A DNA stretch of 64,000 nucleotides, taken from positions 2,398,125 to 2,462,124 of the forward strand of contig RPFO01000130.1 of assembly GCA_009746045.1 (NCBI GenBank). Direction: 5' to 3'. The notes beneath the pieces were generated by a model. It saw only the letters and a list, made by a program, of their open reading frames with translations, did not search any database and had not been told where the DNA came from. Origin of the DNA: Mesostigma viride. Its lineage: Eukaryota > Streptophyta > Mesostigmatophyceae > Mesostigmatales > Mesostigmataceae. The number at the start of each line of letters is the position of its first letter. The stretch's first letter is position 1. Both the position numbers and the translations under genes were made by a program. Positions 914 to 47,845 of this stretch are shown here, piece after piece.

Positions 914-2639
914 GGCTGTTTTACTTCATTCCGCGGTGTGGATCGAGTGTCCCATGCCGGCTGTAGTTATTTTGTCTTGGTATTCTGATTTTGTCTTGGT
1001 ATCTTTGATTAGTGTTGGCTTTGTTTATTTTTAATTGGGTGCCTTCACTCTGATGTAAGTAATTATATATTTTCAATACATACGCACAATCTTTGGGAGA
1101 TAAATCACACAACAAACAAGAGCAGACTACAGATTTATGAAGCACTGCAGAATTGGAACCTAATGATGTCAATTGAACTACGCTGAGACCAGTTATCGCG
1201 GATTCCCGACGGCTAGCTAGACAACCATCCCGTTCCATTTCCATTTCACTGAGGATTTATGCTCACGTGACGTGCAGTCACATGTTATCTAAAAATGTCA
1301 AGTAATCAATTGTCGAGACTTAATTGATTCCTATCTATGGTCTATCTAGCATGAAGGCCAAATGAGGAGGTACTCAGATCAAACCTGGGCTAAGTTACCG
1401 TCGGTAACATGATGCCGGCCGGCAATATGTGCGTGTGTTTGATGTGGACGTGTAAACGGGCGCATTCATCTGCCGACTGCCGCGTATGAACCGGATGTCA
1501 TGCAAACCCAATCCAACAGTATTTGTCCCCAAAGACGGCCATAGTAGAGCATCCGTACATGCATGCGTTCAGTGGCTTGAGGCATGTCTAACATCACCTC
1601 AGTCCGCAATATGTCCAGATCATAACGACGATCGACGCGACCATGAGCTGAACTGCTTTCTTGATCAGTGTGCTGAAAATTGCATCATATTGAATGGACG
1701 AGGTGGCTGAAACAACAGACAATAAAGCGACATGATACCCGCTGCCTACCAGGGAAAACTGGAAGATGTCGATTAAAGAATAGGTAGAATCTTTTCACTG
1801 CTCCTTAATTACAATACCAATTCCAGTCTCCAGAGATACTGTGACAAAAAACAGCAGAACAGGCCGGCATCGGATCCCGCCATCCCGGAACGAACGAATT
1901 ACAGGCAATTACAACGCTCATTACTATAATGAGGCCGCTCTTTCGTGACCATGTTGCGCAAATATATCGTCACTGAAGAAACATTGGCGGGTTGAAGTAC
2001 AGGCAATTACTCTCACCGATACAAAACCTAATAGGTAATATAATTTAAGGCCCTTTGATTACTACAAAATCTTCATCATGACTTTAGCATCCATGACAAA
2101 ATGCGGGTTTGCTGTTGTTGGGGGGAAAATAATTAATCACAGGTATAGTAGGTGAGATCGAAAAGCTAGCGTCCCACAAACCCTTTGTGTGTAAACAGAC
2201 GTGGAGATGACGCCGGTGATCACGTTGTTGCAGGTGCAGATACACTGGGCGCCCGCCATCAGATGACCAGAGTCACCAGACACCAGACCCCACGAGGACC
2301 AGATCGAAAGCATGAGGTGACTGACACGTTTCAGGACACGTGGCACCTTTCCAGCAAAGTTCCTCGCCTGCGTCCTGTGGCGCTACACGGGCGATGCCAA
2401 TAACAATCACCTCCCAAAAGCCAATAAAACCAAATAAATGCACCTTTGCCATGAAGGCCAAATTCATGGCAGTGAAGAGGTACTGGTAGAGACACCCGAA
2501 GGCCAGCGATAATAGTTCGGGTTTCCTTAGAAACCAATTTTCTAGTTCTTTACGCAGTGAATATTACCCCGATTGAAAAACCACGGGCGGTTGCATTAGT
2601 CCGCTCTGTTGTAGCCGCTGTCCTGCATCAACTGCTCTT
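914..2639. other. Intergenic stretch without a supportable gene
   Basis: Only short ORFs without recognisable domains occur here. A dispersed-repeat 3' end lies at 1218-1292 (separate entry). The rest looks unique and AT-richer than the flanks. The 100-200 bases before 2640 would be expected to hold the promoter of the SABATH gene, but no convincing core element could be picked out. Confidence 0.4.
1218..1292 (+). repeat. Dispersed repeat D, 3'-end fragment
   Basis: The segment 'cactgaggatttatgctcac' followed by 'gtgacgtgcagtcacatg' matches stretches at 36436-36530 and 37965-38041, where the same sequence runs directly into a TTAA-repeat tail. This marks it as the 3' end of a retroelement family (SINE or truncated LINE). 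The copy here has lost its tail. Confidence 0.5.
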
Positions 2640-3740
2640 ATGGATACCGACTACAACTCGAATTCGTCCGTTCAACGCCAGCAGGGTCACACCGTGGAGC
2701 GCCATCTCACGGAGGTGACGAGGCGACTGCGTGCGCCGGAGGGAGGTAGAGCATACGTGGTCGTCGACTACGGCTCCGGTCCGGGAAATAACGCCGCCGA
2801 GCAACTGTCCCACCTCGCTAAATCAGTTCATGACAGGACCATGAAGAGCCTGCAGATTGCTGCATACTTCGTGGATCAGCAGGACAAAGAATTGTGGGAT
2901 CAGCTCAAGGAGTACCTGGACGCTTGCTTCTCGACGTTTCCGGATAAGGAGCAATATTGGCTTTCCTACAAATTCGTCAACCGATCTTTTTACGACAACC
3001 AGAGCGAGCTGGCCCCCGGCTCAGTCGACATCGGCTGGTCCAGCATTGCCGCCCACTGGCTCCCAGAGATTCCCATCGGACTCCCAGAAGCCTTCGCCGC
3101 TAACCAGGTCCCCGTGGACGACCCGACCCGTAAGAAATGGGCCGAGGCCGCCGCCAGCAGCTGGCACCGCTGGCTCGCGCTGCGCGCCATCGAGCTCAAG
3201 CCGGGCGGATACCTGGTCGTGGCGCTGCCCGGCGCTACCGATGACGGCGGCTTTGTGGGCCGGACCGCATGGGACGTGTTTTCCGAGGTGAAACGCGACA
3301 TGCTGGCAACCAATCAGATCACGAGGGCGCAAGCAGAACAGCTCTGCACGCGCGAGTACTGGCGCACGACACGCGAGGTGCTGGGCCCGATGTTCTCGGA
3401 CGAGCTGCTGAGCAAGCAGTGGGAGCTGCAGTTCTACGAGCTGGCCTGGCAGCCGTCCCCGTTCCTGCCCCGCCTGGCTGCGGGGGAGGTGGACAAGCGC
3501 GCGTGCGCAGGGTCCCTGGTGGCCTCCTTCCGGGCATTCCTCTCGCAGGAGGTCACCAATGCGCTCGATGGCGGTGGCAGAGCTGGTGGAGTTGGTGGCG
3601 GCGCTGCTGCTGGTGACGGTGCTGGTGGTGGCGCTACCGCAGATGCGTTCTGGGATCGGATTGCGAGGATTGGGGAAGAGGACCCCTCACGCCTGGACTT
3701 GCAATTTATCGTCCACCATATTGTGCTGCGGCGCAAGTGA
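2640..3740 (+). CDS. SABATH-family SAM-dependent carboxyl methyltransferase
   Basis: The ORF of 366 aa is uninterrupted and of usual length for the family. A SAM-binding motif I-like stretch (VVVDYGSGPGNN, residues about 40-52) is followed by the characteristic block SFYDNQSELAPGSVDIGWSS with AAHWLPEIP (about 119-147), equivalent to the SABATH 'SFY...S.HW.S.VP' region that lines the substrate pocket. LRAIELKPGGYLVVALPG matches the post-motif segment, and the C-terminus (LDLQFIVHHIVLRRK) fits the family's final strand. SABATH enzymes methylate carboxyl groups (or a ring nitrogen) of small acids in the cytosol. The substrate cannot be predicted here. Oddities are a Gly/Ala-rich insert at about 308-333 encoded by GGTGGT-type repeats, and a triplicated stop-codon region (separate entry). 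The first ATG is used because similarity to the family begins shortly after it. The gene is intronless, unlike the other host genes here. Confidence 0.82.
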   Translation: MDTDYNSNSSVQRQQGHTVERHLTEVTRRLRAPEGGRAYVVVDYGSGPGNNAAEQLSHLAKSVHDRTMKSLQIAAYFVDQQDKELWDQLKEYLDACFSTFPDKEQYWLSYKFVNRSFYDNQSELAPGSVDIGWSSIAAHWLPEIPIGLPEAFAANQVPVDDPTRKKWAEAAASSWHRWLALRAIELKPGGYLVVALPGATDDGGFVGRTAWDVFSEVKRDMLATNQITRAQAEQLCTREYWRTTREVLGPMFSDELLSKQWELQFYELAWQPSPFLPRLAAGEVDKRACAGSLVASFRAFLSQEVTNALDGGGRAGGVGGGAAAGDGAGGGATADAFWDRIARIGEEDPSRLDLQFIVHHIVLRRK

Positions 3741-3826
3741 AACAAGTTTGTCACTTTGTGCTGCGGCGTAAGTGAACAAGTTCATCACGTTGTGCCGCAG
3801 CGCAAGCGAAACAAGTTTGTCAAGTG
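3717..3826 (+). repeat. Three tandem copies of the SABATH gene 3' end
   Basis: The last codons and stop (ttgtgctgcggcgcaagtga) plus the following 'aacaagtttgtca' are repeated twice more immediately downstream with a few substitutions (near 3751-3787 and 3788-3826). The first copy is the coding one. Later copies have 'cgtaagtga' and 'cgcaagcga' at the stop position. This is a short tandem duplication exactly at the CDS edge, the same pattern as at splice sites elsewhere in this window. Confidence 0.75.
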
Positions 3827-10369: not shown

Positions 10370-13300
10370 TCAGAGTGATGGGTCCTTGATGACTTGCGGC
10401 TTGAAGTCCGGCCGGATGTACCGCTGCAACAGATCCGCGTACATCTCATAGCGAGCCGTCATCTGGAACGCCCAGTGGTCCTTGACCTGGCGGCACAGGT
10501 TCAGGTCCATCTGCCGCAAGCGGAGGTGTACGTAGGGAACGGTGATGTGGGAACAGGGACAAAACAACCAACAAACGTTGATAGTTGTCTCACTTCAAAT
10601 GAAAACAAAGGTGTTGAGATGGAAAATGGTAAGGCAGGTGGCCCACAGTGACAACAGTGCACACACACAGGCGTAGTCGCCCAAGTGAACCCTCGTCGGT
10701 GCCTCTGTCAAAACACACCCTCAAACCCAACCCAATAAACCAACCACTGCCAACTTGGCAACGGACAGCCACCAGCACAACTTGGCTGCTGCAAGGCTCC
10801 GCGCCACGAGAGAAAACACCACCCACCTCCGTAACAACCAGGCCGTTGCATCAGCACACATACCCATGCAACTAATCACCCGGCGGACGTAAGCACCGTC
10901 CTTCCCAACAACCACCCACCTCAGCAACCAGAGGTGCATTGCGGCACCGAGAAAAAACAGCACCCACCTGATGTTATGCAGGTGTCCATGAGACAACCAG
11001 CGCAGGCATGGCATTACGATACTATAGTGACCATGGTAGGCTGGTAGCCATGAGACAACCAGCGCAGGCCTGAAATCTGGAAAATCCAGACCATGGGCCC
11101 TACCGTTTATTTAAGAACCACTTGCCACCTGACCAACACTGCCCACCGCAACGACCAGCAGCCCAATGCAGCAGCCCACATGCCCACATGCCCACAAACC
11201 CACTCACGTGTAACTTTACAGAAACCACCCCCAACCCCGATCGCCACCTGCCTTGGCGACGAGCAGCTGGTGCACGCATCACGGCAGCGCAACTCACGCA
11301 AGCAATCATCCCAGTTTCGTTAGCACAAATCCCCCACACTGGCGACGCACCTCGGCGACGAGCAGCCCATCACGGCAGCGCGACAGCGAGGGCGTGCGCG
11401 AGGCGTCTGGCGCGGCGACGTAGCTGCTGCCGTAAAAGTGGCCAAAGTCCTTGTGCGCGGGCGCGCCGTCGCCCGAAGTGAACGCGTTGGGGAATGACTC
11501 GGTGCCCACGCGGTTGATGCAGCCGACAAAGTAGTTGTTAGCGATTGCGGCATTGCGCGCCTCGATCGACCACATGGGCTCCGACAGGGAGCCGACGGTG
11601 GCGCTTGGGTTGAACACGATCTCGGCGCCGTTCAGGCCAAACGCCTGCCGGGGGGAAGGCGGAGATGGGATTAGAAGGGAAGAAAGGATGACAGGGATCA
11701 GGAATCCTGGGGGGCGGGGAACGTGTGTGTGCAACATTTTCACTATCCTGCCCCCCACCCCGGTTGAATTGTGAAGCCGTAGCGCGCGCGCGCGCGTGCG
11801 TGTGTAGGGGGGATACGATACGGGAACAGCCGGTGGGGGTGTGGAAGGGGGCAAGGGAGGAGCGGGAGGAGGAGGGGAGGAGGAAGGATCAGGAGTCAGG
11901 TCCAGGGGGGGGATTTGATCTGCAATGCAAGACACCTTCCAGGCGAAGGAAACGGGGGGGAGCCAGGAGGGGGGCGGGATGGGGGCAGGATCAAGGTTGG
12001 ACGGTGGCAGTTACGATGGTCGCGGCGGTGATGATGTGGCTGGGACAGCGGCTGGGGAACAAAAGAATGGGAAAGCCAGCCAGAACAAAACAGGATGGGC
12101 GCCAGAGGTAACATGTATCGCTGGGCTTGGTGCTGGGACCGGTTGCTCACCAACAACAGGCAGAGACACGAGAGGCGGTCGTGAACATGGTGCACGCCAT
12201 GCACGAACGTTGCTGGCATCAACCGCTGGCATAGACGAGCAAAGTCTTCACCTCGATACACCCCAACGCTCCCTGCATCCACGAATCTCTGACTGACTAT
12301 AGCGAAGAAACTCGTGTAGGATGGCACTACAAATGCCAGTCCATCAGGTCAAACCCATCAGGCCCTACCTACCCCCATAAAAAGAAGACGATTAGAACTG
12401 AAGTACCACATCCGGAGTCTACGTGTTACACACAGCTGAGAATTGAAGGTAGTTTTGCCATGTTCCAACGGCCCAAGTGCCACAGAGCCATGGAGCGCAC
12501 TCCCACCTATTGTCCATGGGCCCACCTTGTGTACTCGGTCGACTACCGAAAAATGGTGCGCGCTCCCACCTACACAATTCATTGAGTAGCACCGTCCCCA
12601 CCTGGTCGGATCATAGAGAAAAAAGTTCACGATACGACTTCTTTCATTCCTTACCTGCCAGTTCATCGGGTGGTGCCTCCCGTAGCAGATGTTGACGGCG
12701 ATCTTTGCGTACGCCGTTTCAAACACCGGGTGGCCCGTGTTGCCCTCCATGTAGTAGGTGCTCTCGTTGAAGTCGCCAACGCGGGGGATGTGGTTCTTGC
12801 GGTGCTTGCCGATCACGTTGCCTGGGGGAAAAGGAATAGGACACGATAATAAGCAACAAAGAGTTGCACCCAACTTAGCAATTCGGTGCTTGCCGATCAC
12901 GTTGCCTGGGGACAAAGAAGAAGACAAGCGATAGGGCATTGAATAGGACATTCCCATAGGGCAATTAGTGCATTCAACTAAGTAACTCGGCTTGCTGATC
13001 ATGTTGCCTGGGTAGAGCTAATAGGTGGCGGATACAGCAATTAAGAAGGCATCCAATAGCGCAACATACAGGGTGCCAATTAGGGTATCCTAGGTACCTC
13101 AGTGCTTGCCAATAACGTTGCCTAAGGGGCACCAAGAGGGCACCCCAAAAGAGCCTCGATGAGGTATCCCACATGTACACGGCTCGATGAGGTATCCCAC
13201 ATGTACACGGCTCGATGAGGTATCCCACATGTACACGGCTCGATGAGGTATCCCACATGAACACGGCTCGATGAGGTATCCCACATGTACACGGCTCGAT

Positions 13301-16300
13301 GAGGTATCCCACATGAACACGGCTCGATGAGGTATCCCACATGTACACGGCTCGATGAGGTATCCCACATGTACACGGCTCGATGAGGTATCCCACATGA
13401 ACACGGCTCGATGAGGTATCCCACATATACACGGCTCGATGAGGTATCCCACATGAACACGGCTCGATGAGGTATCCCACATGAACACGGCTCGATGAGG
13501 TATCCCACATGAACACGGATGAGGTATCCAACATGAACACGGCTCGATGAGGTATCCCACATGTACACGGCTCGATGAGGTATCCCACATGTACACGGCT
13601 CGATGAGGTATCCCACATGAACACGGCTCGATGAGGTATCCCACATGAACACGGCTCGATGAGGTATCCCACATATACACGGCTCGATGAGGTATCCCAC
13701 ATGAACACGGCTCGATGAGGTATCCAACATGAACACGGCTCGATGAGGTATCCCACATGTACACGGCTCGATGAGGTATCCCACATGAACACGGCTCGAT
13801 GAGGTATCCCACATGAACACGGCTCGATGAGGTATCCCACATGAACACGGCTCGATGAGGTATCCCACATGAACACGGCTCGATGAGGTATCCCACATGA
13901 ACACGGCTCGATGAGGTATCCCACATGAACACGGCTCGATGAGGTATCCCACATGAACACGGATGAGGTATCCCACATGAACACGGCTCGATGAGGTATC
14001 CCACATGAACACGGCTCGATGAGGTATCCCACATGTACACGGCTCGATGAGGTATCCCACATGAACACGGCTCGATGAGGTATCCCACATGTACACGGAT
14101 GAGGTATCCCACATGTACACGGCTCGATGAGGTATCCCACATGAACACGGCTCGATGAGGTATCCCACATGTACACGGCTCGATGAGGTATCCCACATGA
14201 ACACGGCTCGATGAGGTATCCCACATGAACACGGCTCGATGAGGTATCCCACATGAACACGGATGAGGTATCCCACATGTACACGGCTCGATGAGGTATC
14301 CCACATGTACACGGCTCGATGAGGTATCCCACATGAACACGGCTCGATGAGGTATCCCACATGAACACGGCTCGATGAGGTATCCCACATGAACACGGCT
14401 CGATGAGGTATCCCACATGAACACGGCTCGATGAGGTATCCCACATGAACACGGCTCGATGAGGTATCCCACATGAACACGGCTCGATGAGGTATCCCAC
14501 ATGTACACGGCTCGATGAGGTATCCCACATGAACACGGCTCGATGAGGTATCCCACATGTACACGGATGAGGTATCCCACATGAACACGGCTCGATGAGG
14601 TATCCCACATGAACACGGCTCGATGAGGTATCCCACATGAACACGGATGAGGTATCCCACATGAACACGGCTCGATGAGGTATCCCACATGAACACGGCT
14701 CGATGAGGTATCCCACATGTACACGGCTCGATGAGGTATCCCACATGAACACGGCTCGATGAGGTATCCCACATGAACACGGCTCGATGAGGTATCCCAC
14801 ATGAACACGGCTCGATGAGGTATCCCACATGAACACGGCTCGATGAGGTATCCCACATGAACACGGCTCGATGAGGTATCCCACATGAACACGGCTCGAT
14901 GAGGTATCCCACATGAACACGGCTCGATGAGGTATCCCACATGAACACGGCTCGATGAGGTATCCCACATGAACACGGCTCGATGAGGTATCCCACATGA
15001 ACACGGCTCGATGAGGTATCCCACATGAACACGGCTCGATGAGGTATCCCACATGTACACGGCTCGATGAGGTATCCCACATGAACACGGCTCGATGAGG
15101 TATCCCACATGAACACGGCTCGATGAGGTATCCCACATGTACACGGCTCGATGAGGTATCCCACATGAACACGGCTCGATGAGGTATCCCACATGAACAC
15201 GGCTCGATGAGGTATCCCACATGTACACGGATGAGGTATCCCACATGTACACGGCTCGATGAGGTATCCCACATGAACACGGATGAGGTATCCAACATGA
15301 ACACGGCTCGATGAGGTATCCCACATGTACACGGCTCGATGAGGTATCCCACATGAACACGGCTCGATGAGGTATCCCACATGAACACGGATGAGGTATC
15401 CCACATGAACACGGCTCGATGAGGTATCCCACATGAACACGGCTCGATGAGGTATCCAACATGAACACGGCTCGATGAGGTATCCCACATGTACACGGCT
15501 CGATGAGGTATCCCACATGAACACGGATGAGGTATCCAACATGAACACGGCTCGATGAGGTATCCCACATGTACACGGCTCGATGAGGTATCCCACATGA
15601 ACACGGCTCGATGAGGTATCCCACATGAACACGGCTCGATGAGGTATCCCACATGTACACGGCTCGATGAGGTATCCCACATGAACACGGATGAGGTATC
15701 CAACATGAACACGGCTCGATGAGGTATCCCACATGTACACGGCTCGATGAGGTATCCCACATGAACACGGCTCGATGAGGTATCCCACATGTACACGGCT
15801 CGATGAGGTATCCCACATGAACACGGCTCGATGAGGTATCCCACATGAACACGGCTCGATGAGGTATCCCACATGAACACGGCTCGATGAGGTATCCCAC
15901 ATGAACACGGCTCGATGAGGTATCCCACATGAACACGGCTCGATGAGGTATCCCACATGAACACGGCTCGATGAGGTATCCCACATGAACACGGCTCGAT
16001 GAGGTATCCCACATGTACACGGCTCGATGAGGTATCCCACATGAACACGGCTCGATGAGGTATCCCACATGAACACGGCTCGATGAGGTATCCCACATGA
16101 ACACGGCTCGATGAGGTATCCCACATGAACACGGCTCGATGAGGTATCCCACATGAACACGGCTCGATGAGGTATCCCACATGAACACGGCTCGATGAGG
16201 TATCCCACATGTACACGGCTCGATGAGGTATCCCACATGAACACGGCTCGATGAGGTATCCAACATGAACACGGCTCGATGAGGTATCCCACATGTACAC

Positions 16301-19300
16301 GGCTCGATGAGGTATCCCACATGAACACGGATGAGGTATCCCACATGAACACGGATGAGGTATCCCACATGAACACGGCTCGATGAGGTATCCCACATGT
16401 ACACGGCTCGATGAGGTATCCCACATGAACACGGCTCGATGAGGTATCCCACATGAACACGGCTCGATGAGGTATCCCACATGAACACGGCTCGATGAGG
16501 TATCCCACATGAACACGGATGAGGTATCCCACATGAACACGGATGAGGTATCCCACATGAACACGGCTCGATGAGGTATCCCACATGTACACGGCTCGAT
16601 GAGGTATCCCACATGAACACGGCTCGATGAGGTATCCCACATGAACACGGCTCGATGAGGTATCCCACATGAACACGGATGAGGTATCCCACATGAACAC
16701 GGCTCGATGAGGTATCCCACATGTACACGGCTCGATGAGGTATCCCACATGAACACGGCTCGATGAGGTATCCCACATGAACACGGCTCGATGAGGTATC
16801 CCACATGAACACGGCTCGATGAGGTATCCCACATGTACACGGCTCGATGAGGTATCCCACATGAACACGGATGAGGTATCCCACATGAACACGGCTCGAT
16901 GAGGTATCCCACATGAACACGGATGAGGTATCCCACATATACACGGCTCGATGAGGTATCCCACATGAACACGGCTCGATGAGGTATCCCACATGAACAC
17001 GGCTCGATGAGGTATCCCACATGAACACGGCTCGATGAGGTATCCCACATGAACACGGATGAGGTATCCCACATGAACACGGCTCGATGAGGTATCCCAC
17101 ATGAACACGGCTCGATGAGGTATCCCACATGAACACGGCTCGATGAGGTATCCCACATGAACACGGATGAGGTATCCCACATGTACACGGCTCGATGAGG
17201 TATCCCACATGAACACGGATGAGGTATCCCACATATACACGGCTCGATGAGGTATCCCACATGAACACGGCTCGATGAGGTATCCCACATGTACACGGCT
17301 CGATGAGGTATCCCACATGAACACGGCTCGATGAGGTATCCCACATGAACACGGATGAGGTATCCCACATGAACACGGCTCGATGAGGTATCCCACATGA
17401 ACACGGATGAGGTATCCAACATGAACACGGCTCGATGAGGTATCCCACATGAACACGGCTCGATGAGGTATCCCACATGAACACGGCTCGATGAGGTATC
17501 CCACATGAACACGGCTCGATGAGGTATCCCACATGAACACGGCTCGATGAGGTATCCCACATGAACACGGCTCGATGAGGTATCCCACATGAACACGGCT
17601 CGATGAGGTATCCCATACGTACATGGCAATGCACCCGCTCCCCTTTCATAGTAGGCACACCACGATGCTGTTAAATTGCCCATTTTACTGTTACTGCCAG
17701 CCCCGCTTACCCCTGTCAACCCCCCCCCACATACCATTAGTGCCACCCCTTGCCCAACATCGCTGCCGATGGTACCCGTATCATTCTGCCGTAGACGCTG
17801 TCGTGTTGTATTCCTTGGTACAGTAGCATCATACTTCTATCAACTAGGTTACTAACTAAGGCGCTTTACTGAGTCACGTGAGCATAAACCGTTAATGAAA
17901 TGGGTGGTGGCGGAATGTAGCATACCACAGTGAACCCGGCCCCTTGCCTACCGTTGTTGCCGATGACGACGGCCGTGTTCCAGATCGTGTCGCCGTGGGC
18001 CGCGTCACGCTCCAGCATCGGGCTCACGATGACCATCCCGTGCTTCAAGGCCAGCGCCTGCAGCAGCTTGGTGCTCTCTCCCGTCTCGGCGCTCTCCGCA
18101 AACTGGCACCACGACTTCTCGCGCGTGCAGAACGCAAATGGCATCGTCCAGGCCTCCTGGGTGCCACAACACCGTCAAGCATTAGTAGTCAACCATTAGT
18201 ATAAGATGTGGATGGTACTTAGTAAAACAAACGGCATCGTCCAGGCCTCCTGCGCGCACACACGCCATGTACGTGCAGCAGCATGCGAGGGTAGAGTTAG
18301 AAACTTATTAGATACGAGCAAACGGAATCGTCCAGGCCTCCTGCACCTCAACAGCATTCAAGCGAAGACTACGCTCTGTAAGTGTTACGGACTAATCCCC
18401 TGTTCATATGGTTCAAGCGAAGACTACGCTCTGTAAGTGTTACTGACTAATCCCCTGTTCATATGGCACCGTCCAGGGCTCCTGGGCGCCACAACAATCA
18501 ACCACCTCGTGCACACACCCGAACCCAGAATGCAGCAGCAGCATGCAATGTCAGCATGCAAGTGCAAACGGTATCGTCCACGCCTCCTGAGCAACCAATC
18601 GCATGGCCATATTTCAGTCTACTAAAATAATAACGTGCCCTTTTTAGTAATAAATTTTAAATAAGGACTACTAGTGTCATTACAGTTTAATTGAGCATAT
18701 GCACCTGTGAGCGCCGGAAACCACCACTACAGAAGTGATGGACCCAGTGGGCACCTTTAACAGGGGACCTTTGAAACCCTGAGTCCAAATGGCGAATCGC
18801 TCGCCAACCCGAGTTTTAATGATAGAAAGATACAATTAACTAGCAATTAAACAAGCATCTAACAAAAACAAAGTCGCATCGCTCATGAAAATCAGAAATA
18901 CCTTGTGCTGCGAAAGCACACCGTGATAACATCGACCATGCCCCCCCCACGCCACAAGCAACAACCAACCACTGGCTGCCAGCTGTCATAGGCACCTGCA
19001 GGCAGATGATCTTGACCCCCATCGAGCCCGCAGCGTCAATGATGGACGAGATGCGCCCAAAAATAGCCCGCTGCTGCTCAGGGTACGGCGCCGTGGTGGG
19101 CGCGACGATGCTGTTCTGGATGAGGCCCACCTGACGTTGCGGATCAGCACACCCAAAGGTTTATAGTGATGGTATATGCATCAGCAAGGTGTGAAGTATT
19201 TTGAGCACATATCCTAGCGATTCAAACTGGTGGTTGTCACGATGCTGTTCTGGATGAGGCCCACCTGCGGTTGTGGATTGACATCAACACGCCAAAAAAT

Positions 19301-20992
19301 ATTACATTTTGACTAAGAAGAAACCCAATTCATGGCCGCCAATATGCTGTTCTGGATGAGACCCGACCGAGAGATGTGGCCGCATTAGGGGGGGGGGACC
19401 AACAGCTAGGCTGCCATAAGCAAGATGGATTGGAAGAGAGAGAAGAGATTGCAAAAAAGGGTACATCGGAAAATGTAATGAGCCTGGTAGGAGGAACGGT
19501 CTGCACAGGGGGGGGCCACAGTGGGTGCACAGGGGAGGGCCACAATGGGTGCACAGGGGGGGGGGGAATCAGGGGGCCACGCAGTGGGCGCGCGGAAAGA
19601 CAGGGGGACCCCCTGGACATGTTTGAAGGGATGATGAGGCTTACAAGAGCGATGACCCGCTAGGGGACATGCTAGGGCGCCACAGCCAGTGAGCTAGACG
19701 CAGCACTTGTCACGTTGTCGCTATTTATAGTACCTTGACGATCCGCGGTTCCCGCATCTGCTCCGGCTTGGCGGTGAAGCGGTACGCCTGGTGGACCGTG
19801 CGCCAGTCCACGTGAAGCCGCAGGCCGTGGAGCGGTGGAAGGTGCGGCCGTCCACGTGCAGCCACGTGGGCACAGCAGGGCGGTGGCACGTGGGCACAGC
19901 AGGGGAGGGGGGCACCAGGGGGATGTACGTGTGCAGGGCAGGACAGGGCAGAAGCAAGACATCAGGGATGCATGCGGTGACGAATAACTACATCAGACTT
20001 ACCCTAATTAGAAACGTAACATCTCGAAGGAGGCATCAAAGCCCACGTGTGGGGAAAGCTGTGCGCACATTTTAGTAATCCTCATGTCTTGCTATCATAA
20101 CATCTTCAAGTGGGCATCAAAGCGCCTATGCAGGAAAGGCATCAAAGCGCCCATGTGGGAAAAGCCGTGCTCACACTTAGTGCTTCTGATTTCTTACTGT
20201 CCAAGGAAACGAATGTCAATGACTAACCTGGTCTCTTGACGTACTGTAGTTATGCTAGAATTCTCCACTGTCCATCCTTCAAGTGCTGCTAGAAGGCTAG
20301 TATATGCTGGATCTACCCTGGGTATATACCGTCCATTCCCACAACCACTCGCCTGGTCTGGACGCTCAGGACTGCACTGGCGATGAGTGGGTACCTTTGA
20401 AATCCCGGTGAAAGATAGTGGTATGCCGTAATGTGACGTTCCACGTCCACATCATGGCAGCCATGCTGTTCTAGTTCCGTCATCGAGCAAGGGACACATC
20501 CACGACATGCGTGGAACGTGCTGTGCATATGCAGCATACAATCCTGGCATGCCTTCATCTAGATGCTGCTCGCCTGCAGAGTGGGTAGCGCATTCTTGTT
20601 TGTAGGCGCACAGGGCGAATTCTACCGGCGTGGTCCTTTCCAAAGTAGTTAGTCTGCTCCAATGCTGCTACAGAGTACGTTCTCTGCACCCAAAAATAAA
20701 GTACGTCGAGTGTATAACAGATTACCTGTAGGTCAAAATTAAACCACGTGGCAGCTTGGATAACCGCCTTGTCAATCTCGAGACGTTGGACAGTTTGACC
20801 CTGATTGAGTCCGTATATCACCCGCTTCACTTCCTCCATTTTCTCGGCAGGAAGAAAGGCTGCTAGCAATTCGTCCAGCGTCTCAAAGCCAGCAAAGCCA
20901 TCCACCTCCACGTTCGGCTTTTTAACAACTTCCGTCACAGGTCGTTGTCTCTTCTGCAGATGATTCTGCATTTTCCGCATTAACCGCTTCAC
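10370..20992 (-). CDS. PYD3: Beta-ureidopropionase (N-carbamoyl-beta-alanine amidohydrolase), plant PYD3 type
   Basis: Exons in coding order: 20726-20992, 20612-20683 (tentative), 18996-19130, 17952-18156, 12655-12821, 11351-11644, 10370-10510. The others join in phase and give about 426 aa, near the usual length. The enzyme performs the last step of reductive pyrimidine catabolism, hydrolysing N-carbamoyl-beta-alanine to beta-alanine, CO2 and ammonia. Nitrilase-fold catalytic residues are visible: Glu in [13 protein letters not shown] (first codon of exon 4), Lys in [19 protein letters not shown] (exon 5) and Cys in [12 protein letters not shown] (exon 5). Exon 6 holds [20 protein letters not shown] and exon 7 ends with [17 protein letters not shown], closely like land-plant PYD3. 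Exon 1 is the least conserved part, as is usual. Exon 2 ([16 protein letters not shown]...RIRP) is inferred from phase and position. Intron 4 holds a 4.46 kb minisatellite, and most introns contain copies of the adjoining exon edge. Confidence 0.92.
10745..11294 (-). repeat. Decaying copies of the exon 6 donor edge inside intron 6
   Basis: The real exon 6 3' edge on the plus strand reads 'cacctcggcgacgagcagcc' then 'catcacggcagc' (11349-11380). Near copies lie at 11245-11290 (ccttggcgacgagcagctgg ... catcacggcagcgc) and 11143-11175 (caccgcaacgaccagcagcc). More decayed ones lie at 10821-10855 and 10915-10950, both keeping 'caccca-cctc', the reverse complement of a GAGGTG donor. Each copy carries the splice donor. 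Confidence 0.6.
10991..11070 (+). repeat. Direct repeat of 'gagacaaccagcgcaggc'
   Basis: The motif 'catgagacaaccagcgcagg' occurs twice about 61 bp apart (from 10989 and 11050). It also forms both arms of a hairpin at 39473-39573, where one arm is inverted. It is therefore a dispersed family motif, not an exon-edge copy. Confidence 0.5.
12503..12600 (-). repeat. Copies of the exon 5 donor edge inside intron 5
   Basis: The exon 5 3' edge reads 'ttacctgccagttcatcggg' then 'tggtgcctcccg' on the plus strand (12651-12682). At 12566-12599 the intron reads 'cacctacacaattcattgag' then 'tagcaccgtccc', and a further copy starts at 12503 (cccacctattgtccatgggc). Both keep an ACCT that is a donor on the minus strand. 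Confidence 0.45.
12883..13128 (-). repeat. Three copies of the exon 5 acceptor edge inside intron 4
   Basis: The true acceptor and first codons of exon 5 (GNVIGKHR) read 'ggtgcttgccgatcacgttg' then 'cctggggg' at 12801-12828. Copies occur at 12883-12911 (nearly identical), 12986-13013 (cttgctgatcatgttgcctg) and 13101-13128 (gtgcttgccaataacgttgc). Spacing is roughly 80-115 bp, and similarity extends a little into the pyrimidine tract. They are potential decoy acceptors that would preserve the start of the exon. Confidence 0.8.
13153..17612. repeat. 28-bp minisatellite (about 160 units) in intron 4 of the PYD3 gene
   Basis: The unit is 'ctcgatgaggtatcccacat' plus 'gaacacgg' (28 bp). A 24-bp variant lacks 'ctcg', and point variants have gaacacgg/gtacacgg/atacacgg and tatccc/tatcca. 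Because 28 is not a multiple of 3 and no unit makes a stop on the minus strand, all three minus frames stay open for about 4.5 kb, giving spurious ORFs of 1500-1590 codons. It lies wholly within the intron between exons 4 and 5. The extreme homogeneity indicates recent expansion or ongoing homogenisation. Confidence 0.97.
18228..18592 (-). repeat. Four copies of the exon 4 acceptor edge inside intron 3
   Basis: The true exon 4 start is at 18138-18160 (plus: atggcatcgtccaggcctcc, i.e. acceptor plus EAWTMP on minus). Copies occur at 18228-18256, 18320-18345, 18464-18490 and 18565-18592, each with 'g-atcgtcca-gcctcctg' and mostly substitutions. Every copy retains the 'cctcctg' that is an acceptor CAG followed by the Glu codon on the minus strand. 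Confidence 0.85.
18358..18467. repeat. 55-bp tandem duplication
   Basis: The string starting 'tcaagcgaagactacgctct' and ending 'ctgttcatatgg' occurs twice head-to-tail (18358-18412 and 18413-18467) with one or two differences. It lies between the second and third exon 4 edge copies in intron 3 and is therefore more recent than those. Confidence 0.85.
19229..19375 (-). repeat. Two copies of the exon 3 acceptor edge inside intron 2
   Basis: The exon 3 start (VGLIQNSIV) reads 'cgatgctgttctggatgagg' then 'cccacctg' at 19106-19132. It recurs at 19237-19267 with the acceptor intact and VGLIQNSIV still encoded, and at 19341-19375 in a more diverged form (atgctgttctggatgagacc). Confidence 0.82.
19380..19985. 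other. Intron 2 low-complexity G-rich DNA
   Basis: Short G-rich tandem motifs (cacaggggggggccacagtg, gtgcacaggggagggccaca) and a repeated 'cacgtgggcacagcaggg' occur here. No coding evidence was seen on either strand. Confidence 0.5.
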
Positions 20993-33639: not shown

Positions 33640-34110
33640 GGATTGTCAAGCATGACCTCTTCAAGGTCGTCATTCTGACGATCCTGACCTACGGCGCCGC
33701 CAGACCTGGACACTGACGCAGGAGCTGGAGCACCGACTCGACGGCAACGCCACCAATTAATTAATTAATTAGGAACATAACTCTGTGGGGAGTGTATGTA
33801 GCACATAGCCCTTGAGAAGGGGCGTATGGCCTATCATACATTCTAAGCTACTTCTTCAAGGTCGTCATTCTGACGATCCTGACCTACGGCGCCGAGACGT
33901 GGGCACTGACGCAGGAGCTGGAGCAACGACTCGACGGCGCCGTCACCAAGATGCTGCGCCAGGCCCTTAACATCCCCTTTGGTTTGCACATTAGTAATGA
34001 GGATTTGTACGCTGATTTGCCCTATGTTTCCCACATTATTAGGCACAGGCGCCTGGGCCTAGCCGGGCACCTGGCCCGCACAGATCAGGTACGTAGATAC
34101 ATCAGATAGA
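33640..34110 (+). pseudogene. LINE ORF2 C-terminal fragments, partly duplicated
   Basis: 33849-34100 reads FKVVILTILTYGAETWALTQ, LEQRLDGAVTKMLRQALNIP, then LYADLPYVSHIIRHRRLGLA and GHLARTDQ, the region downstream of the RT catalytic core in this LINE family. A shorter copy of the beginning (cttcaaggtcgtcattctga) lies at 33659-33750. A TTAA tail plus a LINE 3'-end segment (33756-33848) separates them, so one LINE end has inserted into another. Confidence 0.7.
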
Positions 34111-34199: not shown

Positions 34200-34440
34200 G
34201 TGATAGACTCGGCATGGACATGTGCTACACTAGACGTGACGGGCTCACCCCCGGGCAGCCTCCTGGTTTGTCTGTAATATGGAGGCAGATGGTGCGCAAG
34301 GATCATAGATGGCAAGTAGTGATGAAGGAGACCACCCCCAAGCCTGTGGGGGCTCCGCGTGTGACCAAGTATGGCATTCATAGCGATTCGGGCCGCGGTG
34401 CCCACACCCATGTAACTAGGACCTAGATAGCTTATACCAT
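34200..34440 (+). repeat. Repeat E, uninterrupted copy
   Basis: The segment from 'gtgacgggctcacccccggg' to 'gtaactaggacctagatagc' recurs at 37576-37960. There it is split by a 163-bp insertion after 'gcaaggat', so this copy serves as the empty-site reference. Confidence 0.8.
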
Positions 34441-34483
34441 CCATTCCATGCCACGAGCCACGAGCCACGAGCCACGAGGTAGC

Positions 34484-37575: not shown

Positions 37576-37960
37576 ACGTGACGGGCTCACACCCGGGCAG
37601 CCTCCTGGTTTGTCTGTAGAATATGGAGGCAGATGGTACGCAAGGATTAATTAATGAATTAATTATCAACCGATCACTCCGTTGGGAGTAAATGTAGCAC
37701 ATATCCCTGAGAAGGGGCATATGGCTTTTAATACATGCTAGGCTACTTCATGCAAGGGTGGGAATGTAAGCTACCCCTGCTCTAGGTGCCTCAAGGGCAC
37801 CGGCACCACCACGCAAGGATAGATGGCAAGTAGTAATGAAGGAGACCACCCCCAAGTCTGTGGGGGGCGGCCACGCGTGTGACCGCGTATGGCATTCATA
37901 GCGATTCGGGCCGTGGTGCCCACAACCCAGTGTAACTAGGACCTAGATAGCTTACATCAT
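37576..37960 (+). repeat. Repeat E, copy interrupted by a LINE-end insertion
   Basis: Matches 34220-34440 up to 'gatggtacgcaaggat' (ending 37647) and again from 37811 onward (acgcaaggatagatggcaag). The interruption is annotated separately. Confidence 0.8.
37638..37820 (-). mobile_element. 5'-truncated LINE 3' end with 10-bp target duplication
   Basis: A 163-bp insert (37648-37810) carries a TTAA/AATT tail at its left and the LINE 3' sequence (ccgttgggagtaaatgtagc ... gcaagggtgggaatgtaagc) in inverted orientation. It is flanked by ACGCAAGGAT at 37638-37647 and 37811-37820. The paralog near 34294 has a single 'gcgcaaggat' at this point. Target duplication plus 5' truncation is the signature of target-primed reverse transcription (established for LINEs). 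Confidence 0.88.
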
Positions 37961-37964
37961 CCAT

Positions 37965-38041
37965 TCCATCCCATATTCCCCTCCCACTGAGGACTTATCG
38001 GCTCACGTGACGCAGTCACATGTCTATTAATTAATTAATTA
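37965..38041 (+). repeat. Repeat D with TTAA tail
   Basis: 'cattccatcccatattcccc' then 'tcccactgaggacttatcgg' and 'cacgtgacgcagtcacatg' run directly into TTAATTAATTAA, as at 36436-36540. The tail abuts the GGAC/GGAT array. Confidence 0.65.
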
Positions 38042-38044
38042 ATG

Positions 38045-38890: not shown

Positions 38891-38919
38891 GATATGGATA
38901 GATTAATTAATTAATTAAA

Positions 38920-39360: not shown

Positions 39361-39472
39361 ATATAGAAATTAGAACCTGTAGGATTGGTGGCCTCCATCC
39401 ATCCACCCATCCGTGATCGGGAGCACGAGTTTAATTTTTAAACAAAGCTTCCGATCCGTTTCCAAGCTATAT

Positions 39473-39573: not shown

Positions 39574-39739
39574 CGCTAGGTATGCCCCTACAAATCCTCA
39601 GGCTCTGGGAGATCGAGGCCCTTATATTCTTGCAATCTGGCTGGCACCTCAAGAGACAATGCGTTCCAAGTGTTTCTGTGGGCTCTGGACCATGGGGCAG
39701 CCTTACTGCATCTGCCACGCTTTTGCTATTAATTAATTA

Positions 39740-42597: not shown

Positions 42598-45500
42598 TCA
42601 GCTTCGAAGCTGCAAATTCAAGCCGCTCTCTCCCAGCATCTTGAATATCTCGACCGCGAGGTCAAAGGAGTGGACTTTCACCAGCCCCTCCTCATCATCG
42701 AAGTAGTGATAAGGGATCGTCTTGTTGCCGGGCCGGTGTGTGTACTCGTCGAACCCATACAGGGTCACGTGGTCACATATCTGGAGCGCGAAAATGGTCG
42801 CAAAGAATCCTGACATCGGTTTGGGGCGAAACTCCTTGTGCTGCTTGTCCTCCAGCAGTGCTTTCAGCTGCGCCCGATACATTACATAAAGAAGGTAAGC
42901 ACGCAAACACAACAGAGCAATAAGCTAAATAGGTTATGCACTTGCAAGGAGGCCTCAGGTACAAAGCGCACTAAAGGACGTATAGCTGGTCTCCAAGTCC
43001 TGGTAGCTGCTGCAGTAAACCAGGCCTCCTGCCCAGCTGCAGTTCCTTCCCCTCTTCCCCGCCCCCCCCCACTCCTCGCAACAGCAACCTCCAATCATCC
43101 CCATACACCCTCTCACCTGCCCACAAGTCTCAACCCAAAAACTTGGATGGAAGTCACCACTGTCTACACTACATCCCAAAACCCAAGCTAAATAGTCCTA
43201 GCTTGAATACAAGCCCGGTTTTAAATATACATGCGGTCGTCATGGCCATACGAGTTGCTTCATATCTACTTTGCCAGGAATAGGCGCGCTGACGCGTCAA
43301 CTGGGGCTTACCAGCACACAAAAACTCCCAAATGCGTGTGAAAACGTCTAATGGCGTTTGTGAGGCGTGGTGCGCGCGTACCTGGACCCACACTTTGTAG
43401 GCCTCATTCTGGAAATAGGGGTTGAGCAGGCACAGCATGTTGGAGGGCACGCCGCGCAGGATGGGCGCGAGCATGTGGTGACGCGACGCGTGGCTCGTCG
43501 TCTCAAAGATAACGAGCCGGCCCTGGCAAACATCACACGTGGTGAGACAGCATAAGAGGCTAGAGCAGGTCAGCGTTGACATGGCTGTGGTCGCCTCAAA
43601 GATGACCAGCCGAACATGGCGAGCGTCAAATGTACGTGAAGGGGAGCAGAAGTGAGGGCATACACGAACATAGAGGGTGAGGACATACAAGAATACATAG
43701 GGGTGAGGACCTACAACTAGAAGAACACATATGGTGAGGACCTACTCTACTAGTAGAACAGATAGGGTGAGGACCTACTACTAGAAGAACAGATAGGGTG
43801 AGGACTTCTAAGATAGATGGCAATGGTCGCCTCAAAGATGGCCAGACCGCCCTGGTGAGCATGGCATGCAGGGCATTGGAGACAAGGTTGCGGCACCTCA
43901 GCTATGGCACGAAACAATCAACCAAAGCTATTAGGCACATGACCCCCCGGGCCCCGGCTGTCCCTCAACGCGACACTCACCCCCCGGCTGCCCCTCAGCT
44001 TGGGCACGATTGCCTCCTCCTCCAGCTTCTGCACCATGATGCGCAGCTTCTTGCCGTTGATGATCGAAAAGGTTGTCCCGTTGCCCACAAAGCGCTCGTA
44101 CCCACGCAGCGGCGCAAAGTTCATGCGAAAAATGGCATCGTGGCCATCAATCTCCTGCCCTAGCGGCTGCTGCAGGAGGATGCCACTGTTGCCAACCACC
44201 GCACAACGGTTGTAGTGCCTGGTGGTAGGTGGGTGGGTGGGGAATGGGGGGGCGGGGGGCGGGCAGTCCGTAGTTCTCATGAGACTAGGCAATACACAAC
44301 TGTGGCCGGCGACTGCACAGCCATTATAGTGCCTGGTGGGGGGAGGGGGGGGAGGGGGTTGTCCATAGACCAAACGAGGCTCAGCAGTATGCAATAGCCG
44401 CATGACTGCGAACAGTTGTAGTGCTAGGAAAGGGAGGGGGGTGGGGGCAAAGTAGAGAAACCACGCGCGCAAACCAAGGTGGGCGCGACGGATGAAGCCT
44501 CCCTGTTACAAAAGAAGTTGCGCTCCAACATGCACTACTGCGGCTGATCAGTGCCCATGGCCATGCCCGTGCATGCCCCATGGGGTCAGGGGAACTTCAC
44601 AGCAGTCCGCCCTCCAGCAAAGCGCATATGCAACCCCGAGCCTGTTATAAGCCGGCATGCTTGGATAACATGCCTGTAGAACAATACCGTGAACAAGAAC
44701 GGGAGCCCGACTATTTTCTGCCCACTGCCCTATGCTCCTATGCCCTATGTCCTATTCCCTACGTCCTATGCTCCTATGCCCAACGCCCAACGCCCAACGC
44801 CCAACGCCCAACGCCCAACGCCCAACGCCCAACGCCCAACGCCCAACGCCCAACGCCCAACGCCCAACGCCCAGTGCCCAATGCCCAACGCCCAACGCCC
44901 AACGCCCAACGCCCAATGCCCAATGCCCAACGCCCAACGCCCAACGCCCAACGCCCAACGCCCAACGCCCAACGCCCAACGCCCAATGCCCAACGCCCAA
45001 CGCCCAACGCCCAACGCCCAACGCCCAACGCCCAACGCCCAACGCCCAACGCCCAACGCCCAGTGCCCAACGCCCAACGCCCAACGCCCAACGCCCAACG
45101 CCCAACGCTCAACGCCCAACGCCCAACGCCCAACGCCCGACGCCCGACGCCCGACGCCCGACGCCCGACACCCAACGCAGTGCCCAGTGCCCAGTGCCCA
45201 GTGCCCAGTGCCCAGTGCCCAGTGCCCAGTGCCCAGTGCCCAGTGCCCAACGCCCAACGCCCAACGCCCAACGCCCAACGCCCGACGCCCGACGCCCGAC
45301 GCCCGACGCCCGACGCCCAACGCAGTGCCCAGTGCCCAGTGCCCAGTGCCCAGTGCCCAGTGCCCAATGCCCAGTGCCCAATGCCCAATGCCCAATGCCC
45401 AATGCCCAATGCCCAGTGCCCAGTGCCCAGTGCCCAATGCCCAATGCCCAATGCCCAATGCCCAATGCCCAATGCCCAATGCCCAATGCCCAATGCCCAA

Positions 45501-47845
45501 TGCCCAATGCCCAATGCCCAATGCCCAATGCCCAATGCCCAATGCCCAATGCCCAATGCCCAATGCCCAATGCCCAATGCCCAATGCCCAATGCCCAATG
45601 CCCAATGCCCAATGCCCAATGCCCAATGCCCAATGCCCAATGCCCAATGCCCAATGCCCAGCGTCCCTGGCGTGCCACCTGGCGTGCACCTGACGGGCGG
45701 CTCCTCCTGCGGCAGCAGGTGGTACACCTCCTGCGAGTAGTAATAGACCACCGACAGGTTCCCGCTCTGGTACTCCAGGTACGGCCGGCCTTGTGGCTCG
45801 TCCTGCGCGGAGATTGTAGGACGTGGATTTGGAGATGGGTGTGGGGTGTTGGGGCGCATGAGTGTGGGGTTGGAGGAGAGTGTGGGGACCATGGGGTTGT
45901 GGGGGCCATGGACGTGTGGGTGTGAGACGGTGGCATGGGCACGGAGGGGAATGGGGAATGGAAGAGGAAAAGGAGAAGAGGAACAAGCGTGAAAGGTGGA
46001 TGATGAAGAGGGCGAGGCACAGGTAAGTGTCTCACGAAGAACAGGGACGCGAGGGAAGGGTCAGGATCCGCTACACACAGCGCCAAGGAGGGAACGAAAT
46101 TCAACAACTGCAGACAAACTCCACGTAAAAAGGTGAATAGCGGCTAGCCCTGGTCAGCAAGGCATGCCGTTCAAGGGCATTTCGGCCAACAGACAGCAAG
46201 TCCAACCCCGCATACGTAGCATCCTACCCGCTACCTTATTCCTGGTGCGCACGCTGGGAAAGATTGGGTTCAAATGTGAGAATCAAATCCAAGCAATTAC
46301 CACTCTGGGCAAGGGGAGGGTAGTCTTCCGTTTGGTAGCTTACGAGAGACTTGATAGTAAATTACTCGAGTAGGTCAAGACACAGACCAGCATTACTGCC
46401 AGCTCTACCGCCAGCATTACCGCCAGCATTACCGCCAGCATTACCGCCAGCATTACCACCAGCATTACCACCAGCATTACCGCCAGCATTACCACCAGCA
46501 TTACCGCCAGCATTACCGCCAGCATTACCGCTAGCGTGCGGCCACCATTCCACTCACACAGACTATTCTATTATTTACCATTAGTACAATCGTGCTTGCT
46601 ATTTACCAAATTTTACACAACATTTCAGTATATTATAGAAGTATATTGATAAATATTATCCTCCATAGTTATAATAGTATTCCACTCACCCACGAATTGT
46701 GCGATCCGCAAACCAGCACCACAAAGCAAGCCAAGCGCCACACCCAGGCCACGCTTCCTCACCACACTCACCGGGTTGACCGTCGCGTTGAACGCTGGGA
46801 ACAGCTTCTTAAAATAGAATAGCCGCGTGCTGTTGTGGATATACGGGACGGTCGGCAGTATGTCGTACGACCGGTTGCGCACCAGCCACTCCTCCGGCGC
46901 AAGACCTGGCCCCGAGCTGCGGGGAGCCAGAACCACACGGCCCGGCGCGCACTGGCTGGGCGACACGTGGCGATCGCAGAACTCGCCTGACGCCGCCACC
47001 TGTTCGCCGTACGGCCTCCCCGCGTGGTCCCTCTGCACCTCCCTGCCCAGGTAGATCTGGGGGAGGTCGCTCTCCTCCCCGTCAGGACCACCCCGCCGCC
47101 GACCGGGGTTATCGCCGTCGTCGTCAGCGTCAGTGTCGCCAGAGGAGCCACCAGGGGGGTCCAGGGACTCGGCCGGAGGGGTTGATGCGTGCGGCAGCGG
47201 CACCAAATGAGGGAGGGGAGGATGAATTTTGGTTGGCGTGCTGGATGCTGGTGGATGGGACTCGCCCTCTGTGCCCTCTGTTTCTAAAATTAGCTCGTCC
47301 TCATCCTTCCTGGCTGGGGCGGTAGCGAGGGGCGCTGTTGTGAGCAAGGGGGCGGGGTCCGCTGCCCTGATAGGGGTGGGTCCTATTTCACTTCCAGAAG
47401 TTGATGAGCTGGCGGGCGCTGGTTCTTGTTCGGGCACTGCGGCTGCGGGTTTTGATTTGTGGCGCCGGCGGTCATGCTTGCTTCTGCTACTGGGCGAATG
47501 CTTGCCCCTGTCAATGACATCGTGGCTGGCCGAGGGAGGTTCGAGCGCGCCGGTTTCGGTTGTATCCGCAACAAGGTTGGAAGACGGCGAAGAGGATGAC
47601 ACTTCTGGGAGGGGAGGAACACCATGCAACACCGGAGGGCGGCGCTCATATAGCGAGCTCTGGCGGTGAACCGCGTGGCGAGTCGCCCCAGGGCGCTTGC
47701 TCACTTGGTGCACGCTCCATGGCTGCTCTTCAATAGGCAGGGAGGCAAATTGGACATGTATCCAAATTGCTCGTGCCGAAGCGACGGCAATGAGGAAGAG
47801 AAGCACGACATGGTCCCGCCGCAGGCGAAACCGTTTCCAGCGCAT
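42598..47845 (-). CDS. GT29 family glycosyltransferase (sialyltransferase-motif protein), five exons
   Basis: Exons in coding order: 46772-47845, 45690-45802, 43981-44218, 43382-43522, 42598-42867. All join in phase (611 aa). It is a type II membrane protein: a basic head ([11 protein letters not shown]), then a transmembrane anchor ([20 protein letters not shown]), then a long Ser/Pro/Asp-rich stem to about residue 290. The catalytic domain shows motif L ([30 protein letters not shown]), motif S ([29 protein letters not shown]), motif III ([10 protein letters not shown]) and a VS-like [10 protein letters not shown] in which the Glu of the usual Hx4E is Ala, with Glu two residues later. GT29 enzymes transfer sialic acid or, in plants, related Kdo/Dha sugars from CMP donors in the Golgi; the donor here is unknown. 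Introns 1, 2 and 3 hold microsatellites and exon-edge copies. The intact motifs and splice sites argue for a functional gene. Confidence 0.9.
43589..43860 (-). repeat. Two copies of the GT29 exon 4 acceptor edge in intron 3
   Basis: The true edge at 43499-43527 reads 'gtctcaaagataacgagccg' then 'gccctggc' (acceptor plus GRLVIFE on minus). Copies lie at 43589-43622 (cgcctcaaagatgaccagcc) and 43825-43860 (cgcctcaaagatggccagac ... ccctggtgag). Between them a roughly 30-bp 'gtgaggacctac-acta-gaa' repeat occurs about four times (43673-43810). Confidence 0.85.
44299..44428 (-). repeat. Two copies of the GT29 exon 3 acceptor edge in intron 2
   Basis: The true edge at 44197-44225 (accgcacaacggttgtagtg then cctggtgg) encodes HYNRCAVV. 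A copy at 44299-44341 reads [11 protein letters not shown], and a second at 44395-44428 (actgcgaacagttgtagtgc) is more decayed. The first includes the start of motif L. Confidence 0.85.
44776..45662. repeat. Heptanucleotide array GCCCAAC/GCCCGAC/GCCCAGT/GCCCAAT in intron 2
   Basis: About 125 units of 7 bp are arranged in blocks on the plus strand: mostly AAC units, then GAC, AGT, AAC, GAC, AGT and a long AAT block (45366-45660). The segment GAC...'cccaacgcagtgcccagt' occurs twice, showing block-level duplication. It makes spurious Asn-Ala-Gln-Arg-Pro ORFs. It starts about 30 bp beyond the GT29 exon 2 donor. Confidence 0.95.
46392..46530. repeat. 12-bp repeat 'attaccgccagc' in GT29 intron 1
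   Basis: Eleven or so units occur with a C/A alternation (accgcc / accacc). It lies entirely within the intron between exons 1 and 2. Confidence 0.92.

Follow-up and report, generated by a model that had tools for sequence, protein, structure and literature searches.

Local tandem duplications reportedly arise from staggered breaks and patch-mediated repair in rice, and from paired nicks in Arabidopsis. Introners have sequence in common between genes. Decoy exons, pseudo-splice sites and NAGNAG tandem acceptors are splice-like sites that compete with true ones, and they are not known to repeat the adjacent exon edge in ~100-bp steps. Tandem genomic duplication is, according to PMC8469720, the one route of intron gain demonstrated by experiment, and the stwintrons of Lipomyces are presented in PMC7138796 as donor duplications of 4-7 nucleotides (nt), confined to the donor and tied to two-step splicing. 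Here we describe repeated exon edges in the streptophyte Mesostigma viride, in a 64,000-nt stretch of contig RPFO01000130.1 (positions 2,398,125 to 2,462,124, forward strand; assembly GCA_009746045.1), which we call the window. Introns of its beta-ureidopropionase gene (BUP) carry decaying copies of the gene's own exon edges, and the same is true of roughly a quarter to a third of the exon-intron borders in the few genes examined.

Each of the known systems resembles these copies in part. Like duplications from staggered breaks or patch-mediated repair, the copies are direct, short-range, tens to about 100 bp in size and sometimes head to tail; unlike them, they concentrate at borders, with an exon part of <60 nt and spacers that are often mismatched. 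Tandem-genomic-duplication intron gain likewise duplicates a stretch that includes a splice signal, but there a new intron comes from exon sequence, whereas the Mesostigma introns lengthen and no new intron was seen. As in Lipomyces, a donor element is duplicated within an intron, yet the Mesostigma copies include 14-59 nt of exon, occur at acceptors too and lie about 100 bp away. Introner elements (PMC8469720) are also repeated sequence with splice signals; unlike introners, each Mesostigma family repeats its own border. The likeness to decoy exons, pseudo-splice sites and NAGNAG acceptors lies in having splice-like sites near true ones. The pattern was absent from titles and abstract openings among the matches listed for borders and for Mesostigma, and we do not present it as unpublished. 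The M. viride genome paper (PMC6947507), whose main text lacks the word stem 'splic', gives a genome of 441.8 Mb with a mean intron length of 1142 bp and names public PacBio full-length transcripts and Illumina RNA reads of strain NIES-296 (PRJNA509752, GSE123852). The assembly used here has 439.9 Mb in 2243 contigs, and the contig of the window is C1513 in it.

Over 89% of its length, the spliced BUP protein is 100% identical to Mesvir1/3540, a public M. viride model. That model has 369 residues, lacks the first 47 of ours and joins the exon edges identically; BUP (P0001) matches Pfam CN_hydrolase at 4e-58. When 30-nt edges were compared with the adjoining introns, four of the 12 BUP edges had copies scoring above both shuffled introns and interior windows of the same exon: the acceptors of exon 3 (score 26), exon 4 (20) and exon 5 (22), and the exon 6 donor (17). 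For these four the shuffles reached at most 10.5-13 and the interior windows at most 8-13.5. The acceptor copies were also recovered independently by a repeat search. These are four of the five BUP edges named in the original prediction, which had been made from the letters of the window; the fifth, the exon 5 donor, scored 12, within the shuffle range (maximum 13), and was not confirmed. The gene, its edges and their copies are as follows.

10370..20980, minus strand: BUP gene, seven exons, 416-residue open frame, GT-AG introns
20726-20980, 19734-19787, 18996-19130, 17952-18156, 12655-12821, 11351-11644 and 10370-10510, minus strand: BUP exons
19100..19130, minus strand: true acceptor edge of exon 3, junction 19130/19131
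19228..19272, minus strand: first copy of the exon 3 acceptor edge, with AG retained; score 33, junctions 134 apart
19333..19368, minus strand: second copy of the exon 3 acceptor edge, without AG; score 22.5
18135..18156, minus strand: true acceptor edge of exon 4, junction 18156/18157
18228..18257, minus strand: first copy of the exon 4 acceptor edge, with AG retained; 95% identity in the exon part
18318..18343, minus strand: second copy of the exon 4 acceptor edge, with AG retained; 91%
18460..18489, minus strand: third copy of the exon 4 acceptor edge, with AG retained; 86%
18554..18589, minus strand: fourth copy of the exon 4 acceptor edge, with AG retained; 82%
12800..12821, minus strand: true acceptor edge of exon 5, junction 12821/12822
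12884..12911, minus strand: first copy of the exon 5 acceptor edge, with AG retained; 22/22 identity in the exon part
12990..13012, minus strand: second copy of the exon 5 acceptor edge, with AG retained; 89%
13093..13128, minus strand: third copy of the exon 5 acceptor edge, with AG retained; 83%
11351..11390, minus strand: true donor edge of exon 6, junction 11350/11351
11251..11293, minus strand: first copy of the exon 6 donor edge, with GC in place of GT
11144..11180, minus strand: second copy of the exon 6 donor edge, with GT retained; 74%
10914..10952, minus strand: third, weak copy of the exon 6 donor edge; score 15, 67%

BUP intron 4 is mostly filled by a ~4.45-kb array of a 28-bp unit (in places 24 bp), at about 13160-17615; the array starts just past the last exon 5 edge copy.

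To the window we added 200 kb of flanking sequence, in which coding exons were sought in zones with local repeats. A further 100 kb held repeat pairs resembling transposon and satellite DNA, and no gene was modelled there. The sample is five genes on one contig: BUP and a GT29 gene in the window and, outside it, a prolyl oligopeptidase gene (POP), a CorA-like gene (COR) and gene X. Public proteins are the basis of the BUP and POP models, and our own reading that of GT29, COR and gene X. Spliced alignment to a public protein gives POP 17 exons, with one GC donor; the best match of a partial draft was Mesvir1/3538 (91%), which the spliced alignment then tracks across the locus. COR has six in-frame exons and a Pfam CorA match at 4e-59. 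Gene X, at 150-161 kb of the 264-kb stretch, may be EB1, but the name was not confirmed. For a second GT29-like gene, no model beyond one exon was obtained.

Across BUP, POP, GT29 and COR, 18 of 62 splice edges had copies in the adjoining intron, within about 400 nt. Inverted copies were seen at none of the 62 edges, copies in the intron across the exon at none of the 62, and copies at the far end of the same intron at none of 40. The search was built so that copies of a donor could lie only downstream of it and those of an acceptor only upstream. Control windows in these genes gave 3/58 (exon, 31-60 nt), 0/51 (exon, 61-90 nt), 7/62 (first 30 nt of intron) and 1/62 (shuffled), and chance was rejected as the source of the copies by the shuffled controls. 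In BUP, POP and GT29 taken together, 11 of 52 edges exceeded the shuffled mean by at least 6, compared with 3 of 610 windows from exon interiors. The best sample is POP, every edge having been scored, although its zone was still entered for visible repeats; there the counts were 8/32 edges and 2/185 exon windows at least 30 nt from an edge (Fisher p 3.6e-6). A boundary excess over exon interiors is therefore present in the sequence reached, as distinct from genome-wide, in line with the recurrent local process proposed in the original prediction; the observation is confirmed as real, and is wider than first reported.

Plain local tandem duplication would be placed independently of gene structure. 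After masking of tandem arrays with a period <60 bp, copies were found at 18 of 61 edges as opposed to 29 of 954 intron windows (18/492 downstream, 11/462 upstream), and satellites were rejected as the source of the edge copies because the excess survives this masking. In a downstream-only recount of 528 windows, 17 of the 20 matches lay in edge arrays or pointed to them, leaving 3/460 elsewhere; that exclusion uses arrays already found, so 29/954 is the safer control. Local direct repeats outside tandem arrays numbered 70 pairs, and 0 in shuffled sequence, and by eye many of the flanking pairs were splice edges. A genome-wide count of AGGTRAGT pairs 76-106 bp apart (563 forward and 323 reverse; backward-pattern controls 148 and 639) was uninformative, the places listed being largely satellite runs and a repeated 108-bp span, and a local version was alike.

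The GT29 gene, whose exons 3 and 4 had been said to behave like those of BUP, did so in part. The exon 4 acceptor (score 17) and the exon 3 donor (15) stood out in the 30-nt test; the exon 3 acceptor scored 12, not above shuffles (maximum 14), and yet has a copy that aligns over 41 nt with a score of 23.

42598..47845, minus strand: GT29 gene, five exons, open spliced frame, Pfam Glyco_transf_29 in two exon-bearing open reading frames
46772-47845, 45690-45802, 43981-44218, 43382-43522 and 42598-42867, minus strand: GT29 exons
44299..44339, minus strand: copy of the exon 3 acceptor edge, AG kept, 41-nt alignment, score 23
43890..43912, minus strand: copy of the exon 3 donor edge, score 15
43582..43620, minus strand: first copy of the exon 4 acceptor edge, without AG
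43818..43855, minus strand: second copy of the exon 4 acceptor edge, with AG retained

In GT29 intron 2, a ~900-bp hexamer array of GGGCAT, GGGCGT and GGGCAC blocks (minus strand) occupies window positions 44766-45660.

Edge copies were also present outside the window, in POP, COR and gene X, and two of these genes contain very recent arrays. At the donor of POP intron 4 the exon edge occurs three times in 103-bp steps; the repeated 33 nt of exon differ at no more than one position, and the spacers are identical at 60 of 62. In gene X a 93-bp unit beginning about 5 nt before a donor is present three times, successive units being 91/93 identical; five of its seven edges score at least 17, and since the edges of gene X were picked for visible repeats they are kept outside the edge-versus-control counts.

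At a lenient cut (score at least 12.5) we listed 47 copies in 26 edge families, whose exon parts average 86% identity. Measured with longer exon templates (36 copies, gene X included), the copies carry 14-59 nt of exon plus the splice site, a broader range than the 15-30 bp originally claimed. Junction-to-junction steps for the 37 copies scoring at least 15 had a median of 100, with 31 of 37 within 75-134; steps of up to 160 bp (30/36) had a mean of 104 and a standard deviation of 16, the six longer ones (161-255 bp) being left out. The longer the exon part, the shorter the spacer (Spearman -0.53), so unit length is the steadier quantity, and a constant spacer of ~70 nt was dropped once the exon part had been measured further. 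The spacers of neighbouring copies were homologous (p<=0.05) in 13 of 35 pairs, where about 2 were expected. Spacer similarity averaged 11.8 within families and 6.6 (standard deviation 1.4) between them, and this comparison, which is without an independent background, gave no sign of a mobile filler common to families. Taken together, the recent arrays and the spacer homology indicate that at least part of the copies came from duplication of the whole unit of ~100 bp.

We therefore favour, with a probability of roughly 0.6, recurrent local direct duplication of ~100-bp units that straddle the border, recent in places and followed by roughly neutral decay. A unit made up of 14-59 nt of exon, the splice site and adjoining intron would be repeated inside the intron, sometimes serially. 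The true, exon-proximal splice site would stay in use, and the extra copies would drift: exon identity, GT/AG and frame would all be lost about as fast as synonymous sites change. The copies would not normally be spliced to, and the border excess would be mutational rather than selected, either because duplication starts there more often or because exon-like copies are made anew from the exon. Gene conversion, with the exon as donor and the copy as recipient, is a likely helper. A paused polymerase, an R-loop, a nucleosome edge or a spliceosome-bound transcript might mark the border; these are suggestions only. A more specific proposal is that duplication is targeted to splice junctions and coupled to transcription or splicing, stamping ~100-bp border copies so that introns grow outward from their ends. 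This is possible, though well short of likely, and if it were true the splicing machinery must ignore many near-identical sites.

The fate of the copies was followed through codon positions and distance. Differences between exon and copy at positions 1, 2 and 3 numbered 55, 47 and 85, at about 410 sites each, and those between copies 41, 33 and 51. In our reading, the copies change fairly evenly and the exon adds synonymous changes, at similar rates, as under free drift. The nearer copy was more like the true edge than the farther one in 14 of 21 neighbouring pairs, with 6 against and 1 tie; decay with distance, as first claimed, describes BUP (8/8 pairs) and is not general.

Several observations weigh against duplication with neutral decay as we propose it, and they are given here with the explanations on which they bear. 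The sample was selected: BUP and GT29 were chosen in the original prediction, and the POP, COR and gene X zones were searched for repeats seen there. Before masking, random intron windows match in 17 of 48 cases, as often as edges, because these introns hold satellites, and the contrast between edges and intron is visible only after satellite masking. Copies are also present at stop codons. At a score of at least 13, taken without shuffles, they occur at 2 of 5 stops (the SABATH-like gene, 18; COR, 14) and 0 of 4 starts, and at those two stops the steps are 33-35 bp. These small numbers hint that splice sites as such may not be the target, and that borders between coding and non-coding sequence may be involved generally. 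In the SABATH-like gene, where a repeated stop-codon edge had been correctly anticipated, each unit carries the gene's last codons, and the second and third units lie in the 3' flank.

Open reading frame 2577-3740, plus strand: SABATH-like gene, Pfam Methyltransf_7
3721..3825, plus strand: SABATH-like stop-codon edge, three ~35-bp head-to-tail units starting at 3721, 3756 and 3790, edge score 18

The copies at 2 of 5 stops, the 17/48 unmasked windows and the short-period repeats held by the introns would all suit neutral tandem duplication running everywhere in genes, with border cases staying visible and exon-internal duplications purged. A simulated gene subjected to uniform ~100-bp tandem duplication and neutral drift, however, gave an edge to intron-window ratio of 0.79, compared with roughly 10 observed (18/61 against 29/954 after masking, and 3/460 outside arrays), which argues that borders are favoured at birth, or that copies are renewed or kept. 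Moreover, the exon part never exceeded 59 nt in 36 copies, and random ~100-bp units would often exceed 60. Uniform duplication is thus contradicted in this sample and is an improbable account.

The spacers raise a second difficulty. The outermost copy in POP intron 4 goes on to have only about 13 nt of intron in common with the true edge, and looks more like a copied edge joined to an unrelated spacer. Eighteen spacer pairs from 17 families were drawn from the 35, comprising those beside a true edge and the second POP intron 4 pair, with spacers >130 nt and COR intron 3 left out; in 11 of these, or in 7 of 18 if indels are assumed to be very frequent, the spacers have diverged further than the similarity of the exon parts would allow. 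Such over-diverged spacers fit conversion from the exon, copying of the edge only, or constraint. Short templated insertions during double-strand-break end joining, of the polymerase-theta type, would copy a 30-50 nt edge and leave original intron as the spacer, and the POP intron 4 copy, the 22 of 35 spacer pairs without significant homology and the 7-11 over-diverged pairs of 18 speak for them. Insertions of this type are expected in both orientations, and yet inverted copies and copies across the exon were each 0/62; with 13 of 35 spacer pairs homologous and steps mostly near 100 bp, we consider this explanation quite unlikely. Of the mechanisms first offered, local duplication thus gains from the 103- and 93-bp arrays and the 13/35 spacers, and templated repair is disfavoured by the lack of inverted copies at 62 edges.

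Short gene-conversion tracts from the exon could instead maintain the copies after an initial tandem duplication. Spacer similarity seems independent of exon-part identity (by inspection, no correlation having been computed): the exon part in BUP intron 4 is identical at 22/22 with a spacer score of 14.4, and that in POP intron 14 is 86% identical with a spacer score of 26.4. Rates of change in copy and exon since their last common state are similar, as conversion would also allow. Conversion alone leaves the starts of arrays at borders unexplained, and we regard it as a doubtful account of the copies as a whole.

Selection might also keep the copies as decoy or helper splice sites that recruit or trap splicing factors, as the original prediction allowed. 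The copies are confined to borders, include exon sequence together with the splice signal, and often preserve their exon parts better than their spacers; among the 12 most diverged, 10 keep GT/AG where 6.4 were expected (p 0.03). Overall, retention of GT/AG in 37 of 47 copies equals the neutral expectation of about 35 derived from exon-part identity, and the other 10 copies depart from the claim that the splice dinucleotide is kept. The copies do not evolve more slowly than synonymous sites: their lineages changed by about 12% at positions 1 and 2, no less than the additional change of about 8% at position 3 of the exon. Copy number and position are, in addition, inconsistent among the genes seen. 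Selection for decoys therefore receives little support and is unlikely.

Reading frame bears on the possibility that the copies are alternative splice sites or exons giving protein isoforms. Distances to the true junction were divisible by 3 in 15 of 37 copies (p 0.22) and in 4 of 17 donors. For acceptors, multiples of 3 made up 11 of 20 distances (p 0.04) and 12 of 20 when counted step by step (p 0.013), a lean that free drift does not predict and that, with some read-throughs that are open and in frame (for example BUP intron 4 copies 1 and 2), would suit isoforms. Against this, 31 of 37 read-throughs from copies hit stops and 6 are stop-free, one COR intron 4 copy has an in-frame TAG in its exon part by our reading, and both public models used join the true edges. 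An isoform function is very improbable, and alternative coding exons were rejected on stops and frame despite the lean of the acceptors. We rank local direct duplication first, with conversion as its likely helper, and templated insertion and selected decoys as weaker. Borders are special in the birth of copies or in their upkeep, and the cause of the preference was not found.

Other repeats were noted in the window. At 38031-38914 all six frames are open for about 290 codons, as a short-period repeat would give. A block of ~400 bp at 50433-51266 lies head to tail at 439/407 bp, nearly identical, and diverged blocks at 34234-40300 repeated at 1.2-3.5 kb resemble an old segmental or transposon duplication. 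A piece of open reading frame at 33654-33756 is repeated 193-195 bp further on and may be part of a retroelement reverse transcriptase, which it resembles. Elsewhere, a 35-bp repeat pair 100 bp apart lies at C1513 near 2183000 (about base 14875 of the joined 364-kb stretch), in a stretch without a modelled gene, and its first copy ends in a donor-like GAG|GTGAGC.

Chaperonin genes (PF00118) were noted on other contigs. Those at C887:341605-349664 (minus strand) and C1641:60944-67934 (plus strand) have three exon matches with identical scores and an intron spacing that differs by about 3.2 kb downstream; they are a recent duplicate or a haplotig pair, suited to dating intron change. At C2011:1347332-1348840 (plus strand) a full-length chaperonin match (positions 1-489) lies in one uninterrupted 554-codon frame, unlike the split genes, for which an intronless copy, an organelle-type gene and a bacterial contaminant are candidates.

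If the rate seen here holds genome-wide, many introns of this early-diverging streptophyte would carry fossils of their own growth, and with them a datable record of intron lengthening. They would also constitute a natural experiment in splice-site choice, with near-identical sites mostly 75-134 nt apart of which one is used in the models, and possibly a link of splicing or transcription to local mutation. Border-linked duplication may explain both the growth of introns and the tolerance of splicing for decoy sites.

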